Source: Thermoanaerobaculales bacterium (GTDB taxonomy: Bacteria > Acidobacteriota > Thermoanaerobaculia > Thermoanaerobaculales > Sulfomarinibacteraceae). From it: a stretch of DNA of 34,560 nucleotides. This document shows, in pieces, positions 21,732 through 30,687 of the stretch. A program made the translations under genes and the position numbers. The notes under the pieces were generated by a model, which saw only the letters and a program-made list of their open reading frames with translations, was not told the DNA's origin and searched no databases. The stretch is from contig JAIOSJ010000301.1 of assembly GCA_021107705.1 (NCBI GenBank), positions 1 to 34,560 on the forward strand. The letters are read 5' to 3'. Position 1 is the stretch's first letter, and the number at the start of each line of letters is the position of its first letter.

Positions 21732-23456
21732 ATGTATCACAAGATTATCCAGATAGTGTTGCTTTGCGCGCTCATCCTGCTGCCGGGGTTGTCGGAGGCC
21801 GAGAAGGAATCAGGCGTCGGCGACACTGAGTTGCTCAACCTCATGCAATTTGAACTCGACCGCTCTTTCAAGAACCTGAAAAATGCCGATGAGACCCCCA
21901 TTTACTACATGCAGTACGCGGTCATCGAGAACCGCGATTTTGCTCTCGCGGTGACCAATGGCGGGCTGGAAGCGCCGATATCTTCGACCCTACGTTATCT
22001 GGATGTGGACATTCGAGTCGGCAGTCCGGAGCTTGACAATACGCACGAGATCCGCAGCGACAACTGGCGGGACAATTACACTCCACGTCGTCTGGTGCAG
22101 TTCCCTCTCGAGGCTGATCCGTTGGCGGTGCGCACGACCTTGTGGAACGAGACCGAGTATAAGCGTCGTAAGGCGCTCGACCGTTTCACCAAAGTCAAGG
22201 CCAATCGGCAATTGAAGGTCGAAGAAGAAGATACATCGGCCGATTTTTCTGCGGCACAGGCACAGCAATTCGAAGAGATCATGCCTGAACAGCTGTTCGA
22301 CGCCGAGTACTGGCGCCCCGTGCTCAAGCGTGTCGGTCAATATGGCGCCGGTTTGCCATTTGTCAAAAACTCCAGCGTGCGACTGCAGCTGACCCAGAAA
22401 ACGACCTACATGGTCAACACTGAAGGAACCCGTTTGCAGCACGGCGCGTGTTACATCCGCCTTTTCGTCAATTTCACCGGTATGGCCGAGGATGGCATGG
22501 AACTGCGACGGACCGAAGGATGGAATGCAGCTTCGTTCGGCAAGTTGCCGTCCGAAGAGGAAATCATGGCGACGTCCAGGCGATTGGGCGCAGAACTCAA
22601 AGACCTCATCGACGCGCCGGTGGTCACTCCTTTCGTCGGGCCGGCGATTCTGGTCAATCGGGCCAGTGGAGTCTTTTTCCACGAGATCTTCGGTCACCGT
22701 CTCGAAGGGCACCGCCAGAAGAGTGAAAGCGAAGGGCAGACTTTCACTAAAATGGTCGGCAAATCGGTGCTGCCGGATTTCCTCGACGTTTTGGACGACG
22801 CCACATTGGCCGACTTTGACGGCATCGACCTGCGGGGATACTACAAATTCGACGACGAAGGTGTTCCGGCGCAACCCGTGAGCATCGTTGAAAATGGTGT
22901 GCTCAAGGAATTTCTGCTGACCCGTTCACCGATCGACGGTTTCCCGCGCAGCAACGGCCATGCGCGCCGGGATTTCGGCCGCGAAGTCGTGGCTCGCATG
23001 GGCAATACGATCGTGAGATCTTCAAAAGCTTTTGAATATCAGAAGTTGCGCGAAATGCTGATCGACGAGATCAAAAAGCAAGAAAAACCTTATGGCCTGA
23101 TTTTTCAGGACATTTCAGGAGGGTTCACCATGACCGGTCGTGGTGGCACGCAAGCGTTCAAGGTCATTCCGCTCTTGGTGTACCGGGTTTTCCCGGATGG
23201 TCGTGAGGACGAAGTTGTGCGCGGCGTCGATATTGTCGGCACGCCACTGACGAGTTTCAGCAAGATCATCGCAACCGGGGACGATCCCGCCGTCTTTAAC
23301 GGTACCTGCGGAGCCGAATCGGGCTCGGTGCCGGTCAGCGCAATCTCGCCGAGCATTCTGGTGTCCGAGATCGAAGTCGAAAGGGTGCGCAAAGGCCAAG
23401 AAAAGCCGCCGCTGCTGCCACCACCCAACAAAAAGGGTCAAGGAGGTGCAGCATGA
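21732..23456 (+). CDS. Exported TldD-like zinc metalloprotease
   Basis: A 574-residue TldD/PmbA-family protein. The N-terminus is a signal peptide (KIIQIVLLCALILLPGLSEA), unlike cytoplasmic TldD. The zinc motif HEIFGH (H317, E318, H322) is intact, followed by RLEGHR. Family segments such as FDDEGVPAQPVSIVENGVL and SNGHAR follow. The C-terminal half contains the usual beta-barrel strands and ends in a Pro-rich tail. The start is ATG 21732, with GGAGGT upstream. Its stop codon overlaps the start of the next gene (ATGA), which encodes a related protein without the zinc motif, so the pair resembles the TldD/TldE heterodimer moved to the periplasm. TldD/E normally degrades unfolded peptides and cleaves leaders of modified peptides such as microcin B17. 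The function here is unknown. Confidence 0.88.
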   Translation: MYHKIIQIVLLCALILLPGLSEAEKESGVGDTELLNLMQFELDRSFKNLKNADETPIYYMQYAVIENRDFALAVTNGGLEAPISSTLRYLDVDIRVGSPELDNTHEIRSDNWRDNYTPRRLVQFPLEADPLAVRTTLWNETEYKRRKALDRFTKVKANRQLKVEEEDTSADFSAAQAQQFEEIMPEQLFDAEYWRPVLKRVGQYGAGLPFVKNSSVRLQLTQKTTYMVNTEGTRLQHGACYIRLFVNFTGMAEDGMELRRTEGWNAASFGKLPSEEEIMATSRRLGAELKDLIDAPVVTPFVGPAILVNRASGVFFHEIFGHRLEGHRQKSESEGQTFTKMVGKSVLPDFLDVLDDATLADFDGIDLRGYYKFDDEGVPAQPVSIVENGVLKEFLLTRSPIDGFPRSNGHARRDFGREVVARMGNTIVRSSKAFEYQKLREMLIDEIKKQEKPYGLIFQDISGGFTMTGRGGTQAFKVIPLLVYRVFPDGREDEVVRGVDIVGTPLTSFSKIIATGDDPAVFNGTCGAESGSVPVSAISPSILVSEIEVERVRKGQEKPPLLPPPNKKGQGGAA

Positions 23457-25192
23457 AAACAGTCAAAAGAATGAGTTTTGCCATGCATTTATTGGTCATT
23501 GCGGCCTTTTTGACCGTGCCCATACAGTCGATTGCGGCAGACGATGTCATCGCCCGGGCCATGGCCGACGAGTTGGCCCGCACCAGCAAACAGCTCGTCA
23601 TGCCTGGCATGGAACCGCCCTACTTCGTCAGTTATTGCATCGAAGACGAATTCTCCGCCGAGATCATTGCTACGAACGGCGCTATCGTGGAGAGCAACCA
23701 GAAAGCGAACCGGCAATTTTTCGTCGATGTTCGGGTTGGTGATCACAAGCTCGACAACAGCTATTTCATCGGTCATTGGCGCGATCTCTTTGGGCGCCCG
23801 ATGACCATGGTCGAAGAAGACGACTATGCCGGCATCCGCCATCAACTATGGCTGTACACCGATGTCGCTTACAAAAAGGCGTTGGAGAACCTGGCCGGCA
23901 AAAAGGCATATCTCGCATCGCACCCAGTCACGGTAGAGATTCCGGATTTCGTGGCGGCCGAAAGCAGAGTCGTCGAAGATGAACCCGTTGACTTGGCTCT
24001 GGATCTAAGCTTCCGGCAGGAACAGGTGGACCAGGCATCCAAAGCCCTGGGCGCCTTTGCCGGGCTGCAGGAGTGGCAGGTGATTCTGCAGGCCGAAGCT
24101 TCGAACAAGCGTTATTTGAATTCCGAGGGAGCTCGATTTCTGAAAACGCGCAACCGGTGCATGCTCGAAATCTCGGCCACCGCCCTGGCGGCAGACGGCC
24201 AACGCCTGACCAATTTCCGTCGTCTGCTCACGGTTGACCCAGACGAGATCTTGTCTGGTGACGAGATTGTCAAAGAAGCGCAAACCGTGGCTCGAGAGCT
24301 GCTGGAGATGGCCGAGGCGCCGGCCCTCGACGAGTATGCGGGCCCGGTTTTGTTTTCGGAATGCGCCGCGGCGCAGGTTATAACGCAACTGTTTTCCGGG
24401 CAGCTCACGCCGGCTCGGTCGCCGCTCATGCAAGAGGGTTGGATGCGGCAATACATGCCCGATGCAAAGCTCGTGCGGCGGGTCAATCGAAGAGTCATGC
24501 CGGAATTCATGCATGTCACAGACGATCCAACTCGGGAGCTCTTTGACGGAGTCAAGTTGGCCGGCCACAGGTTGGTGGATGACGAAGCTGTGGCGAGTCA
24601 GAAAATCGAACTGATTAGGGCCGGGCGACTTGTCAACCTGCCCATGAGCCGCCGGCCGAGCAAGAAGATCCGCAGCTCCAACGGCCATGCCAGTCTGTTG
24701 GACAACCAGTGGATCGTACCGACCGTTTCGAGCCTGTTTGTCGAAAGCGACAAGACAAAGACAGAAGCGGAGTTGCTGACCGACCTGCGTAAGACGGCCG
24801 GCGAGTTCGGCAATGAGTATGGCCTGTTGGTCAAGCGACTCGACCGGCCGGAAATCTCTTCACGCTACAGCTGGTCGACTGAGCAAGAAGCATCGACCGA
24901 GCTCATGACTGATCCTTTGATCATGTACAAAGTCTATGTGGATGACGGCCGCGTGGAACCCGTGCGGGGCTTGACCCCCGACGACATCACCGTGCGCAGT
25001 TTGCGCGACATCATCGCTATCGGTGACACGGTGAAGGCGTTCAACATGTTGGTGTCGACGAGCATCCAGCCGGATGCCTATGCGGTGACGGTCGTCACAG
25101 GGTCGATTCTCATTGAAGACGCCGGTTTTAAAGCTGTTACAAGCCGTGAACCTCTTCCGGTGAGTACGAGACCGTTGGTTGCCGCGAAATAG
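23453..25192 (+). CDS. Exported TldE/PmbA-like partner lacking the zinc site
   Basis: A 579-residue protein with a signal peptide (FAMHLLVIAAFLTVPIQSIAA) and the fold features of the TldD/PmbA family. Both proteins share early blocks such as DVDIRVG or DVRVGDHKLDN and the later SNGHA segment. Where the partner has HEIFGH this one has LFSECAAAQ, so zinc cannot be bound in the usual way; TldE of the classic pair is also non-catalytic. The 4-nt ATGA overlap with the upstream gene supports equal amounts of the two and a heterodimer. The 3' end is followed by 223 bp without a gene. Confidence 0.85.
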   Translation: MKTVKRMSFAMHLLVIAAFLTVPIQSIAADDVIARAMADELARTSKQLVMPGMEPPYFVSYCIEDEFSAEIIATNGAIVESNQKANRQFFVDVRVGDHKLDNSYFIGHWRDLFGRPMTMVEEDDYAGIRHQLWLYTDVAYKKALENLAGKKAYLASHPVTVEIPDFVAAESRVVEDEPVDLALDLSFRQEQVDQASKALGAFAGLQEWQVILQAEASNKRYLNSEGARFLKTRNRCMLEISATALAADGQRLTNFRRLLTVDPDEILSGDEIVKEAQTVARELLEMAEAPALDEYAGPVLFSECAAAQVITQLFSGQLTPARSPLMQEGWMRQYMPDAKLVRRVNRRVMPEFMHVTDDPTRELFDGVKLAGHRLVDDEAVASQKIELIRAGRLVNLPMSRRPSKKIRSSNGHASLLDNQWIVPTVSSLFVESDKTKTEAELLTDLRKTAGEFGNEYGLLVKRLDRPEISSRYSWSTEQEASTELMTDPLIMYKVYVDDGRVEPVRGLTPDDITVRSLRDIIAIGDTVKAFNMLVSTSIQPDAYAVTVVTGSILIEDAGFKAVTSREPLPVSTRPLVAAK

Positions 25193-25415: not shown

Positions 25416-26597
25416 ATGGGCGACGAGTTAATTTATCTGGACAACGCGGCGACAACCTTCCCCAAACCCGATGTCATGCACGACGCCGTTCGGGACTTTT
25501 ATCGAAAGAACGGAGTGAACCCCGGTCGAACGGGTTGTGATCTGGCCATCGCGGCCGAGGAAATGATCCACGGAACACGGAAAAAGTACTCGACTCTCTT
25601 CAATAGGAGTCTTGTCGAGGGCGGTGGCGCCAAGGATCCGAACAGACTTGTTTTCACCTCAAATGCCACCATGAGTCTCAACCTTGTCATCAACGGGACC
25701 GTGGCGCCCGGCGACCACCTGGTTACGACAATGCTGGAGCACAACTCGGTGATCCGCCCTGTCAATCACAAGGTCAAGGAAGGCGCCGAGGCAACCTACG
25801 TTGTGCCGGACAACGAGGGCTACCTCGATCCCGAGGAAATTCGCAAGGCCGTCAAGAAGAACACCACACTCGTCATCATCAACCACGCGTCCAACGTTAC
25901 CGGAGTGGTTCAGGACATCGAGGCTATCGGAAGGGTATGCAAAGAGGAAGGCGTACCTCTGGCCGTCGACTCGGCTCAGACCGCCGGCGTGTTGTCCATC
26001 GACATGCCCAAGTGCAACATCAGTTTCCTGTCCTTTACCGGGCACAAGGGACTGTTCGGCCCAACAGGCACCGGCGGCATATGTTTGGCGGACGACGCGA
26101 AGATCAGGGGGACAATATACGGTGGCACTGGGGTGCGAAGCGCCATCCCTTTTCACCTTGAGGAATATCCCTACAGACTCGAAGCGGGAACGCAGAATCT
26201 GGCCGGGATCGCCGGTCTTTCCGCTGGACTCGACTGGGTGCTCGCCAAGGGTATTGAGAATATCTACGCCCACGAGATGGGCCTGTTCGAGCGGCTTCAG
26301 GAAGGGCTGGCAGAGATCAAGGGCATCAAGATCTGGGGTACCAGGAACCTACAGAACAGGGTGGCTACCTTGTCGATGACCGTAGACAAGTACGATGCTT
26401 CCGACGTGGGTACCATTCTCGACGTCGATTACGGAATCCAAACCCGCACCGGACTGCACTGCGCGCCTCTGATCCACGAGTACCACGGATCGGCGCCGAG
26501 GGGTACGGTCAGGTTCTCGGTAGGTCCGTTCAACACAGAGGAACACATCGAGGCGTCCATAAAGGCCGTAGCCGAGATATCGGCTGAGAGAAACTGA
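25416..26597 (+). CDS. Cysteine desulfurase-family protein (class V aminotransferase)
   Basis: PLP enzyme of 393 residues, likely taking sulfur from cysteine. Features: N-terminal YLDNAATTFPKP, PLP contacts LEHNS (H109) and AVDSAQ (D185), the Schiff-base lysine K211 in FTGHKGLFGPTGTGG, and a cysteine in GLHCAPLIHE near residue 345 at the persulfide position. The ending with GTVRFSVGPFNTEEHI matches the NifS-like subfamily that is not dedicated to iron-sulfur scaffold genes. The start is ATG 25416, with GACGAGGTGAG upstream. Twenty-five bp separate it from the DsrC-like gene, so it heads an apparent operon with the Tmc-like complex. A selenocysteine lyase or another cysteine-sulfur role cannot be excluded. 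Confidence 0.88.
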   Translation: MGDELIYLDNAATTFPKPDVMHDAVRDFYRKNGVNPGRTGCDLAIAAEEMIHGTRKKYSTLFNRSLVEGGGAKDPNRLVFTSNATMSLNLVINGTVAPGDHLVTTMLEHNSVIRPVNHKVKEGAEATYVVPDNEGYLDPEEIRKAVKKNTTLVIINHASNVTGVVQDIEAIGRVCKEEGVPLAVDSAQTAGVLSIDMPKCNISFLSFTGHKGLFGPTGTGGICLADDAKIRGTIYGGTGVRSAIPFHLEEYPYRLEAGTQNLAGIAGLSAGLDWVLAKGIENIYAHEMGLFERLQEGLAEIKGIKIWGTRNLQNRVATLSMTVDKYDASDVGTILDVDYGIQTRTGLHCAPLIHEYHGSAPRGTVRFSVGPFNTEEHIEASIKAVAEISAERN

Positions 26598-26622: not shown

Positions 26623-26940
26623 ATGCCGTCCATAGTAGTCAACGGAAATTCACTTGACACAAATGACGAGGGTTATCTGGTCAATATTGACGACTGGAAT
26701 CCAGATGTTGCACTTGCGTTGGCCGCCGGGGAACAGGTGGACGACCTGACCGAAGATCACTGGGAAGTGGTCAACTATATTCGTGACTTCTACCTGGAGA
26801 ACAAGACGGCCCCCATGGTTCGGAAGATTTGCAAGAAAACCGGGTTCAAGCTCAAGCAGATCTATCGATTCTTTCCCACCGGACCGGCCAAGGGGGCGGC
26901 CAAGATAGCCGGTCTTCCGAAGCCGGACGGGTGCGTCTAA
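26623..26940 (+). CDS. DsrC/TusE-family sulfur carrier with a single C-terminal Cys
   Basis: A 105-residue protein of the DsrC/TusE/DsvC family. Family segments: VNGNSLDTNDEGYLVNIDDW, LTEDHWEVVNYIRDFY, and the C-terminal arm FFPTGPAKGAAKIAGLPK ending DGCV. The penultimate cysteine C104 (CysA) is present. The second redox cysteine of true DsrC, eleven positions earlier, is replaced by A93, as in TusE-like members. It could therefore carry a persulfide but cannot form the intramolecular disulfide or trisulfide used in dissimilatory sulfite reduction. The start is ATG 26623, with AAAGGAG upstream. It lies between a cysteine desulfurase and the Tmc genes, which suggests a relay that accepts sulfur from the first and donates to, or signals to, the second. 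Confidence 0.9.
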   Translation: MPSIVVNGNSLDTNDEGYLVNIDDWNPDVALALAAGEQVDDLTEDHWEVVNYIRDFYLENKTAPMVRKICKKTGFKLKQIYRFFPTGPAKGAAKIAGLPKPDGCV

Positions 26941-26983
26941 CCCGGTAGACATTACCGTTAAGTCGGTGATTCGGAGAGGAATA

Positions 26984-28261
26984 ATGGACGACGAGAAAAC
27001 CGGAGGCATGGACGCTGAGGAGAAAACCGTTGCCTTTGCCGGCTTGAAAGATCGTTTCGATCAAATTGAAGAACCATACGTGAGCCCTGACGGCGAGACC
27101 ATCGCCGCCATAGTTCAAAGAGACGACGATAGCTTCAGTGTCTGCGCAAACGGCGAAGAATGGGAAGGCTCGTTCGAGAAGGTCTGGTACCTGCGCTTTA
27201 CCCCCGACGGTCGTGCGACCGCACTCGTGATGGACGATGACGAATGGACCCTGGCCGTGGATGGAGAGCCGTGGGAAGAATCATTCGAATACGTCTGGAA
27301 CACCTTGTTCAGCGCGGACGGGAAGAGCATCGCGATCGCCGCTCAGGACGATTCCAGGTACTTCATGGTGCTGGACGGGCAACCCTGGGAAAAGAGATAT
27401 CACCGGATTTCCGACATGATCATCAGCGACGATGGAGCGCGAACCGCCGCCGTAGTGCAGACGAAACCGCTTGGACAGGGAGAGATCGCCGAGTTTCAGA
27501 AAGGTGTCTTTACGGTGGCGGTCAACGGCGAAAGCTGGCCGTGTTCGTTTATGGGCGTGTGGCGTCCGGTTTTCAGTTCTTGTGATCGACGTGTCGCTGC
27601 CTCCGTGCGCCTGAACCAGTTCGATTACACCATTGCGGTCAACGGAGAATGCTGGAGAAGCGCTTATAGATGTGTCTGGGAGCCCGCGTTCAAACCAGGC
27701 AGCTCTACGGTATTGGCGCCGGTCATGAAGGATGGGAAGTGGCGCCTCTTCGCCGACGACGAGGACATGTGGGGAAGGGAGTTTTTCCAGATCTGGAGCC
27801 CGACCTGCAGCGATGACGGCGCCCGTGTCACTGCGATCGTCGCGCCGAAATACGGTAAGTGGACGATTGCGGTCGACGGCGATCCATGGAGACTTCTCTT
27901 CGACGAGATGGTGAGCGATCTTGTGGTGTCGCCCGGGGGCGGCAAGAGAGTGGCGGCCGTCGGCAAGCACCGTGGGAAATACTCCATCTTCGTGGACGGT
28001 ACTTCATGGGATGACCTTTTCGACATGGCCTGGAAGCCGGTTTTCAGCCCTACCGCGGAGCATGTCGCCGCGAAAGTGGAAAAGAACGGGAAGTACGGGA
28101 TCGCCCTCGACGGAAAGCTGGTCGTTTCCCAATGCGACGCGACCTTTGATCCGGTGTTCGACCCGAACGGTGATCTATTGATACTCAAGTACCTGAAGAA
28201 CGGGCACTATACCCGACGTATAGCAAGGATCTCGGATCTAACAGCGGGGAAGGCACAGTGA
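26984..28261 (+). CDS. tmcD: TmcD-like tryptophan-rich beta-propeller protein
   Basis: A 425-residue cytoplasmic protein without a signal peptide. It is made of about eight blade-like repeats of ~45-50 residues. Each has a strand around VSPDGETIAAIV, FTPDGRATALV or FSADGKSIAIA, then a segment like WTLAVDGEPWEESFEYVW. Tryptophan is unusually frequent. This fits TmcD, the Trp-rich WD40-like subunit of the Tmc complex of sulfate reducers, and the three following genes encode matching C, B and A subunits. The start is ATG 26984, with GGAGAGG upstream; the track start at 26966 is a GTG before that site. The 3' end overlaps tmcC by four bases (GTGA). The molecular role of TmcD is not established. 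Confidence 0.8.
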   Translation: MDDEKTGGMDAEEKTVAFAGLKDRFDQIEEPYVSPDGETIAAIVQRDDDSFSVCANGEEWEGSFEKVWYLRFTPDGRATALVMDDDEWTLAVDGEPWEESFEYVWNTLFSADGKSIAIAAQDDSRYFMVLDGQPWEKRYHRISDMIISDDGARTAAVVQTKPLGQGEIAEFQKGVFTVAVNGESWPCSFMGVWRPVFSSCDRRVAASVRLNQFDYTIAVNGECWRSAYRCVWEPAFKPGSSTVLAPVMKDGKWRLFADDEDMWGREFFQIWSPTCSDDGARVTAIVAPKYGKWTIAVDGDPWRLLFDEMVSDLVVSPGGGKRVAAVGKHRGKYSIFVDGTSWDDLFDMAWKPVFSPTAEHVAAKVEKNGKYGIALDGKLVVSQCDATFDPVFDPNGDLLILKYLKNGHYTRRIARISDLTAGKAQ

Positions 28262-28917
28262 CCGCGCTGTACGATTTCATCACCGGTCCGATGGCATGGC
28301 TGAGCTTTGCCGTGTTCTTCGGCGGTATTATCTTCAAACTCGTGAGGATGGTCCTGCTGGCGCGCGAGAAGGATATTTTCATTTTCTCCTATATGAGCTT
28401 CAGGTACGGGTTGCGCTCCATCCTCCACTGGTTGACGCCGTTCGGTACGCGCAGCATGCGCGGACACCCACTGATGACCGTGATGATGTTCGCTTTTCAC
28501 ATTTGTGTAATCGCGGCGCCCCTTTTTGTAATGGCACACGGTGTTCTGATCGAGGAGGGCACGGGAGTTTCCTGGCTTTCCATACCCGACAAGGTTGCGG
28601 ACGTCATGACGGTCATTGTCATTTGCAGCCTCTTGTTCTTCGTGGTTCGCAGGTGTGTGGTTCGGGAGGTCAGGTTTGTCACAACGCCTTCAGATTTTAT
28701 GCTGCTCAGTCTGGTCGTGGCGCCTTTTGTCACGGCCTTCATCGCCTACCACCAGTGGTTGGACTATCGGCTGTTCATGATTGCGCACGTTATTTCCGGT
28801 GAGGCGCTGCTGATGGCCATTCCGTTCACTCGCCTGAGCCACCTCATTTTCAGTCTCTTCACCAGGGCGTACGCCGGCAGCGAGTTCGGAGCGGTCCGCT
28901 ACGCCAGGGACTGGTAG
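28258..28917 (+). CDS. tmcC: TmcC-like membrane cytochrome b subunit
   Basis: A 219-residue integral membrane protein of the NarI/DsrM-like type with about five helices. Histidines that could bind two b haems stand in or beside helices: FHICVIAAP, MAHGV, AYHQWLDY, IAHVISGEALL and RLSHLIF. The soluble loop after helix 1 is short. It would pass electrons across the membrane between the periplasmic cytochrome encoded by the last gene and the iron-sulfur subunit encoded next. The start is GTG 28258, overlapping the stop codon of the upstream gene. DsrM is the other family to consider, but DsrM is usually longer, and the four-haem cytochrome and Trp-rich neighbour favour Tmc. Confidence 0.83.
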   Translation: MTALYDFITGPMAWLSFAVFFGGIIFKLVRMVLLAREKDIFIFSYMSFRYGLRSILHWLTPFGTRSMRGHPLMTVMMFAFHICVIAAPLFVMAHGVLIEEGTGVSWLSIPDKVADVMTVIVICSLLFFVVRRCVVREVRFVTTPSDFMLLSLVVAPFVTAFIAYHQWLDYRLFMIAHVISGEALLMAIPFTRLSHLIFSLFTRAYAGSEFGAVRYARDW

Positions 28918-28927
28918 GGGAGAGCGA

Positions 28928-30265
28928 ATGACGAAAGAAATATCGTCCGCCGCCAGGTCCGATAAGATCATAGACTCGCAGTTGGAAAGAGGGGCTGCGG
29001 CGCTGACGCAGGAGCGAATCGAGCAGGTCGTCAACCGATGTCTCGACAACGAGACCGGCGCGAGATTAAAGGTCTATCTGGAAACCTGCGCGCACTGCGG
29101 ACTGTGTTCGGACGCGTGTCATCACTACCTTTCCAACGACAACGACCCGCAGTTCTCACCAGCCGGCAAGGTGATGCGGACTCTTGGGCACATGGTCAAA
29201 AAACGAGGAAAGGTGAGTCCCGCTTTCTTCAAGAAGGCGGCCGAGATCGCCTATACCGAATGCAATGTCTGCAAGCGCTGCACAATGTACTGCCCCTTTG
29301 GAATCGACACCGCGTACCTGATGCTCGTAACCAGAAGAATTTGTCACAACCTCGGGGTAACGCCTCAGTACCTGCAGGACACCGCCCACAGTCACAGCGC
29401 CACCATGAACCAGATGTGGGTGAAGGAGGACGAGTGGCTGGACACTCTTCAGTGGCAGGAGGACGAGGCCCGCGACGAACTTGAAGGGCTCAGAATACCG
29501 CTGGAGAAAGAGGGGGCCGATGTGATGTACTCGATCATCGCGCCCGAACCGAAATTTCAGCCTCAGTTGATTCTTCAGACGGCGGTTCTGATGAACTTGG
29601 CAGGCATCGACTGGACCATGCCGGCGACCCCCGGCTGGGACAACAGCGACATGGCGATGTACTCCGGCGACGACGAAGTGATGGGTCGGGTGAAGCGAGC
29701 GCATTTCGACACTGCGGCCCGTCTGAAGGTCAAACGCATCGTGATGGGGGAGTGCGGGCACGCTTTCAGGTCCGTCTACGACGTCGGCAACAGGATTTTG
29801 GGCTTCAGGATGCCGCCTATCCCTGTTGTTCACGCCCTCGAGTTTTACTACGAGCTTTTCAAGACCGGGAAACTGACCGTAACCCACAAGTTTGACAAGA
29901 CCATTACCATGCACGATCCTTGCAATGTTTCGAGGGGTAGGGGTCTCCACGACATGGCCAGATATGTCGTGAACGCCGCCTGTACCAACTATGTGGACAT
30001 GGCGCCGAACCGCGAGCACAACTTCTGTTGCACAGCCGGGGGAGGCGTTATCAATTGCGGCCCCCCCTTCAAACAAAAGCGCATGGAGGCGTCGAAGATC
30101 AAAGCGGAGCAGCTGAAGGCGACCGGGGCCGAGGTGCTTATCTCCGCCTGCCACAACTGTCACAGCGGCCTGGAGGACATCGTCGAGCACTACGAGCTGG
30201 ATATGGAGGTCAAGTTCCTCGGGGATATCCTGTTCGAGGTGGTGGACAGACCGGAGGTAGAGTGA
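28928..30265 (+). CDS. tmcB: TmcB-like iron-sulfur subunit (HdrD/DsrK family)
   Basis: A 445-residue cytoplasmic subunit. The N-terminal ferredoxin-like part has two [4Fe-4S] sites: CAHCGLCSDAC (C54, C57, C60, C64) and CNVCKRCTMYCP (C112, C115, C118, C122). The C-terminal part has the CCG-type motifs of heterodisulfide reductase HdrD and DsrK: MGECGHAF, MHDPCNVSRG, HNFCCTAGGG and ISACHNCHSG. These bind the non-cubane cluster at which disulfide-type substrates react. The likely partner in sulfate reducers is a DsrC trisulfide, but the DsrC-like protein of this operon lacks one of the needed cysteines. The start is ATG 28928, ten bases after tmcC. The end overlaps tmcA by one base (TGATG). Confidence 0.9.
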   Translation: MTKEISSAARSDKIIDSQLERGAAALTQERIEQVVNRCLDNETGARLKVYLETCAHCGLCSDACHHYLSNDNDPQFSPAGKVMRTLGHMVKKRGKVSPAFFKKAAEIAYTECNVCKRCTMYCPFGIDTAYLMLVTRRICHNLGVTPQYLQDTAHSHSATMNQMWVKEDEWLDTLQWQEDEARDELEGLRIPLEKEGADVMYSIIAPEPKFQPQLILQTAVLMNLAGIDWTMPATPGWDNSDMAMYSGDDEVMGRVKRAHFDTAARLKVKRIVMGECGHAFRSVYDVGNRILGFRMPPIPVVHALEFYYELFKTGKLTVTHKFDKTITMHDPCNVSRGRGLHDMARYVVNAACTNYVDMAPNREHNFCCTAGGGVINCGPPFKQKRMEASKIKAEQLKATGAEVLISACHNCHSGLEDIVEHYELDMEVKFLGDILFEVVDRPEVE

Positions 30266-30687
30266 TGGGACGATCCCTTTTTGCTGCCGTAATGCTGACG
30301 GGTATGTGCCTGGTTTCATGGGCTTTCGGACAGGAGGAGATGACCCGGGTGAACAGCGATGCCTTCGAAAATCCGTCCAGGCATGAGGCGCTCTTCGTCC
30401 ACGATGCACACAACGAAAAGGCGGGCCTGGGAGAATGCGCTTCCTGTCACCATATTTTCGAGAACGGGGTGTTGCAAAAAGATGATTCATCCGTGGGTAC
30501 GCCATGCTCCGAATGTCATCAACCTTCCGATAGGGGAGAGACACCCAGCCTCATGCGTGCGTTTCACTTGAAGTGCAAGAGTTGTCATCAAGAACTCAAG
30601 TCAGGTCCTCTGATGTGTGGAGAATGTCACAAGAGGCCAACTCGGTGGATCCGGAACCAAGAAGCGACAGGCCGGCCCGCCGGGTAG
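30265..30687 (+). CDS. tmcA: TmcA-like periplasmic tetrahaem cytochrome c3
   Basis: A 140-residue protein from ATG 30265, which shares its A with the tmcB stop codon; the track ORF runs too far upstream. A signal peptide (SLFAAVMLTGMCLVSWAFG) precedes four CxxCH haem sites: CASCH (58-62), CSECH (81-85), CKSCH (104-108) and CGECH (118-122). Extra histidines (H46, H49, H63, H101) can act as distal ligands, as in class III cytochrome c3. It would receive electrons from periplasmic hydrogenase or formate dehydrogenase, or from another cytochrome, and pass them to TmcC. DsrJ is less likely because it has three haems and a different ligand pattern. No clear terminator follows in the next 220 bp. 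Confidence 0.88.
   Translation: MGRSLFAAVMLTGMCLVSWAFGQEEMTRVNSDAFENPSRHEALFVHDAHNEKAGLGECASCHHIFENGVLQKDDSSVGTPCSECHQPSDRGETPSLMRAFHLKCKSCHQELKSGPLMCGECHKRPTRWIRNQEATGRPAG

Follow-up and report, generated by a model that had tools for sequence, protein, structure and literature searches.

The window analysed here is a complete contig of 34,560 bases from the genome of a Thermoanaerobaculales bacterium (4.32 Mb, 94.8% complete, contamination estimate 1.1%). It contains an operon of six co-directional genes in the order CSD-dsrC-tmcDCBA, which overlap or are separated by gaps of at most 43 bp. The first gene (25416-26597, on the forward strand like the five that follow) encodes a cysteine desulfurase of the class-V aminotransferase fold. 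It is of the TIGR01977/EF2568 type (422 bits, cut-off 377), with the PLP lysine in SFTGHK and a catalytic-type cysteine in RTGLHCAP. After a gap of 25 bp, an intact reading frame of 105 amino acids (26623-26940) encodes a DsrC-family protein, with an AGGAG ribosome-binding site 8 nt ahead of its ATG.

The remaining four genes encode a Tmc complex. For tmcD (26984-28261; NF045725, 557.8 bits, cut-off 440) we prefer the ATG at 26984 over the listed GTG at 26966 as the probable start because GGAGAGG is found just upstream, which leaves 43 bp to dsrC. The gene tmcC (28258-28917; NF045723, 314.6 bits, cut-off 240) encodes the membrane cytochrome b-type anchor and tmcB (28928-30265; NF045724, 797.9 bits, cut-off 735) the HdrD/DsrK-like subunit, which contains two ferredoxin motifs and one complete CCG motif, CX..CCX..CXXC, at 332-411. 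The last gene, tmcA (30265-30687; PF02085, 46 bits), overlaps the tmcB stop and encodes a class III cytochrome c with four CXXCH motifs. TmcB, TmcC and TmcD all pass their curated equivalog thresholds and TmcA is a tetraheme type II c3 cytochrome, as in TmcABCD of sulfate reducers; the HdrD-type neighbour reported in the earlier note is real. TmcB shares up to 71% identity with its Desulfobacterota counterparts and only 55-57% with homologues of its own family, which suggests that the tmc genes may have been acquired laterally. Promoter scanning of the region performed no better than on shuffled sequences.

Upstream of the operon lies a TldD/PmbA-like gene pair (window positions 21732-25192), the second gene of which shows a 26% match to the first. 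The family and order of this genome yielded no close homologue of the first gene, whose product shares 42-44% identity with proteins from other families of the class.

The DsrC-family protein and its cysteines

The dsrC product matches PF04358 (E=1.2e-36), scores 117 bits on TIGR03342 (cut-off 53.5) and yields an AlphaFold model (pLDDT 91) with a TM-score of approximately 0.9 against the DsrC structures 2XSJ and 2V4J. When aligned with DsrC chains from the PDB, C104 at the penultimate position corresponds to CysA and A93 to CysB; the C-terminal arm reads FPTGPAKGAAKIAGLPKPDGCV. The intact reading frame, the profile matches and this alignment confirm the central observation of the earlier note, namely that C104 is kept and alanine occupies the CysB position. 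The Ala93 codon (GCC, 26899-26901, forward strand) is two substitutions away from TGC, so a single-base sequencing error does not account for the alanine and can be dismissed; moreover, the same residue is found independently in a second, distant genome of the phylum, G119.

The protein contains a third cysteine, C70, which the earlier note had overlooked. D. vulgaris DsrC has serine at this position, and cysteine is found there in 39/45 and 38/39 two-cysteine relatives. Since C70 is frequent among proteins that possess both redox cysteines, it is an old feature of the lineage, and a newly evolved stand-in for CysB can be ruled out.

The D. vulgaris-type dissimilatory DsrC (PDB 2V4J) and the window protein share the family, the fold and CysA within a PKP-GCV arm, with 44% identity in the fold alignment. 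However, the window protein lacks CysB, is encoded next to a desulfurase and belongs to a genome without detected dsrAB. It is the only DsrC in this genome: a second DsrC, whether of the two-cysteine type that the earlier note proposed to look for or a TusE, was not found, and neither was a TIGR02064 match for dsrA, in an assembly that is 94.8% complete. Most well-covered relatives from the same family carry dsrA together with a two-cysteine DsrC.

The penultimate cysteine is always kept in the DsrC family, and CysB occurs almost only together with DsrAB; where DsrAB is absent, the CysB position is taken by Ala, Ser or Thr, a few exceptions aside (PMC3397948). Given this rule, which the earlier note had also overlooked, and since dsrA was not detected, the single cysteine of the window protein is expected and its loss by itself unsurprising. 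A single-cysteine DsrC without DsrAB is thus ordinary; what is unusual is its operon context with a Tmc complex.

A clade of desulfurase-linked DsrC proteins

We placed the protein in a DsrC tree of 113 rows and 96 columns, in which many forks are weak and E. coli TusE is not included. Three sets are separated: TusE-like single-cysteine proteins, dsrAB-type proteins with a PTGCV arm, and 47 proteins with a PDGCV or PEGCV arm (support 94/87). The window and G119 proteins both belong to the last set. Within this tree the window DsrC lies outside the TusE-like set and apart from the DsrCs that its own family encodes in dsr operons, which rules out vertical descent from the latter. Cysteine occupies the CysB position in 84/84 DsrCs sampled from the two-cysteine clades of the phylum, and all 45 other members of the PDGCV/PEGCV set retain both cysteines; alanine is restricted to the window and G119. 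As the window protein pairs with a two-cysteine protein (98/76) and the G119 protein stands elsewhere in the set, CysB was apparently lost twice, separately. The two proteins differ in how far they have diverged: the window DsrC has a long branch and deviates at 5/33 near-invariant columns, which would be compatible with relaxed constraint, whereas CysB is the sole changed column among these 33 in G119.

The genes next to these proteins are conserved. A homologous desulfurase is present within 6 kb of 40/44 placed two-cysteine loci of the clade and of both single-cysteine loci, compared with 0/25 TusE-like loci and 1/39 dsr-type loci, where the flanks are often short. Most of the two-cysteine loci also have a cytochrome b/HdrD pair: an HdrD/DsrK/TmcB homologue lies within 6 kb in 37/44. 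In the other seven (L188, L199, L202, L205, L207, L215 and L244) the DsrC is found beside a desulfurase and the available sequence up to 6 kb away showed no HdrD homologue, so the neighbourhood need not include an HdrD partner. The usual order of the module is DsrC, cytochrome b, HdrD-like protein and desulfurase, an arrangement shared by five genomes from the same order as the window. Like DsrMK/HdrED-type modules, these loci combine a cytochrome b and an HdrD/DsrK-like CCG protein with DsrC; they differ in having a cysteine desulfurase in place of dsrAB and in their HdrD-like proteins, which score below the DsrK, TmcB and HmcF cut-offs. No dsrA was found in any of the 14 module genomes checked, three of which are closed, single-contig genomes, and one of which gave only matches below the cut-off. 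By the published rule (PMC3397948), the exceptional case is therefore this two-cysteine clade, which apparently manages without dsrA, rather than the window protein. We found no description of a desulfurase-DsrC-HdrD cluster in the open-access literature.

The window locus shares with this module a DsrC of the clade and a TIGR01977 desulfurase. The cytochrome b/HdrD-like pair of the sister loci is absent and its position is occupied by tmcDCBA. A desulfurase neighbour is thus usual for this DsrC clade, whereas the membrane electron-transfer complex Tmc is not normally found beside DsrC.

Recurrence of the pairing with Tmc

TmcABCD has been postulated as a partner of DsrC in D. vulgaris (PMC6470260), and the earlier note expected single-cysteine DsrCs to co-occur with Tmc in other genomes. 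They do not. We examined 80 tmc loci of named genomes: neither dsrC nor a closely similar desulfurase accompanied any of them in the available sequence, which reached at most 10 kb to either side, and no DsrC was encoded next to tmc in the other tmc carriers of the window's own phylum. We also searched with a pattern for the canonical arm lacking CysB, which recovers 75/84 known arms when the position is set to cysteine (recall about 89%). With this pattern the CysB-less arm was detected in 0/32 tmc-carrying genomes, in 0/345 sampled genomes of the phylum of the sulfate reducers and in 2/396 genomes of the window's phylum, the latter two being the window genome and G119. A single-cysteine DsrC adjoining tmc has therefore been seen only once, and a recurring partnership is ruled out by the 80 loci and the two genome samples. 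The lack of such co-occurrence was one half of what the earlier note had named as speaking against its reading. The interpretation in that note is thus supported in part: the link to the desulfurase is conserved in the clade, but the pairing with Tmc does not recur.

Other tmc loci vary in their composition. Four loci from relatives in the window's family (L154, L155, L156 and L157) have the order tmcD-C-B and encode a TmcB about 56% identical; downstream they show several matches to c-type cytochromes rather than one TmcA. The contigs of three of these loci also carry dsrA and a two-cysteine DsrC. A Deltaproteobacteria contig (L106) contains two consecutive tmcDCBA-type operons.

A possible mechanism and its alternatives

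The firmest functional statement that can be made from these comparisons is the predicted link of DsrC to the desulfurase, since the Tmc pairing is unique to the window genome; correspondingly, the best-founded suggestion of the earlier note is that the adjacent desulfurase feeds the protein. A direct precedent for the charging step exists: IscS and cysteine add sulfur to the penultimate cysteine of A. vinosum DsrC even if serine replaces CysB (PMC3397948), so that charging does not depend on CysB. We tentatively favour, at somewhat less than an even chance, a reading in which the window encodes a one-cysteine variant of a module that is apparently independent of DsrAB. The desulfurase would remove sulfur from L-cysteine and leave it as a persulfide on C104. 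In the two-cysteine relatives, CysB may then attack this sulfur to give an intramolecular disulfide or trisulfide, which the cytochrome b/HdrD pair could reduce with electrons from the membrane. In the window, where CysB is gone and Tmc fills the slot of this pair beside dsrC, the [4Fe-4S] centre at the CCG motif of TmcB would have to act directly on the C104 persulfide, freeing sulfide or operating in reverse, with electrons exchanged in either direction via TmcC and the periplasmic cytochrome TmcA. Arguing for this mechanism are the tight six-gene operon, the placement in the clade and its desulfurase linkage, the failure to detect dsrA in this genome or in the 14 module genomes, the five genomes with two kinds of DsrC described below and the retained CCG motif of TmcB, together with the IscS precedent (PMC3397948) and the postulated TmcABCD-DsrC interaction (PMC6470260). 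Against it stand the single occurrence of the arrangement, the long branch with its five altered columns and the seven clade loci without HdrD. In addition, the literature examined documents no case of an HdrD-type centre that reduces a DsrC persulfide directly when CysB is missing.

An alternative that we consider unlikely on balance, and rank below direct action of TmcB, is that the protein is a TusE-like donor: the desulfurase would charge C104, DsrC would pass the sulfane sulfur on to MnmA or another biosynthetic acceptor, and the proximity of tmc would be incidental. The likeness to TusE of the Tus relay is considerable, as both have a single penultimate cysteine, Ala (or Ser/Thr) at CysB as is typical of TusE-type proteins without DsrAB (PMC3397948), and sulfur that ultimately comes from a cysteine desulfurase; in the window genome this enzyme even adjoins the only DsrC/TusE candidate. 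However, the protein belongs to a separate clade in the tree of the phylum and reaches 90.2 bits on the TusE equivalog NF008562 (cut-off 191), a threshold that many non-enteric TusE-like proteins may also fail. Furthermore, none of the 25 TusE-like loci has this desulfurase nearby, the genome gave only a single borderline DsrE-family match (24.1 bits, cut-off 22.7) for a TusBCD-like relay, and the window protein shares its operon with a membrane HdrD-type complex as well as the desulfurase. Five genomes contain both a TusE-like DsrC and a desulfurase-linked two-cysteine DsrC, which suggests that the two probably do different jobs.

The divergence of the window protein could also indicate decay. 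Without dsrAB and with a changed partner complex, CysB would no longer be under selection and the protein would drift, in line with the long branch, the changed columns and the mere two cases of CysB loss. Still, the reading frame is intact, belongs to a tight operon and is preceded by a good ribosome-binding site, the protein retains C104 and most of its arm, and in G119 nothing but CysB has changed among the 33 columns; we regard decay as improbable. Less probable still is a role as a persulfide sensor, in which C104 would read desulfurase-derived sulfur and a helix-turn-helix-like fold would regulate the tmc operon. The protein would be co-transcribed with its target and its fold resembles helix-turn-helix regulators weakly, but these matches rank below those to DsrC and are not significant (E of about 1 or worse). 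We attach just as little probability to the contig being foreign to the genome, in which case the statements on the only DsrC and the missing dsrA would describe another organism. The closeness of tmcB to Desulfobacterota and the lack of close homologues of the upstream TldD gene in the family would fit such an origin. On the other hand, the tetranucleotide composition of the window agrees with that of the other contigs (r=0.89, compared with 0.65-0.80 among those contigs, which are shorter pieces), so mis-binning is not indicated. The low contamination estimate and a DsrC arm and clade typical of the phylum also argue against it.

A wider reading, which we put forward as a possibility with more doubt than confidence, is that the sister loci and the window represent a respiratory or redox module free of DsrAB. 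DsrC would receive its sulfur from a desulfurase instead of sulfite reductase, and this sulfur would exchange electrons with a membrane HdrD-type complex; the window version would run on one cysteine, with direct action of TmcB on the protein persulfide. In current models, the role of DsrC in membrane electron transfer depends on a two-cysteine trisulfide made by DsrAB. In the sampled phylum, genomes without detected dsrA encode two-cysteine DsrCs next to both a desulfurase and an HdrD-type complex, and within this set CysB has apparently been lost twice independently. A comparison of the one- and two-cysteine forms would be a direct test of whether HdrD-type complexes need CysB to act on DsrC-bound sulfur, and also of whether sulfur derived from cysteine is able to supply or drain a respiratory chain. 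The loss of CysB itself may be of less interest than the occurrence of this module in genomes that lack dsrAB, and dsrC is unsafe as a marker of sulfur respiration.

The DsrC family includes further variants in the sampled genomes. Tandem double-domain proteins of about 217 amino acids, in which the second domain has neither the GCV arm nor CysA at its end, are encoded at L028 (1150-1827, reverse strand) and L029 (1438-2130, forward strand), with additional matches in G002, G064, G163 and G364. Two divergent DsrCs (L235 and L239) have tyrosine at the CysB position and an arm ending in PSGCL or PAGCF.
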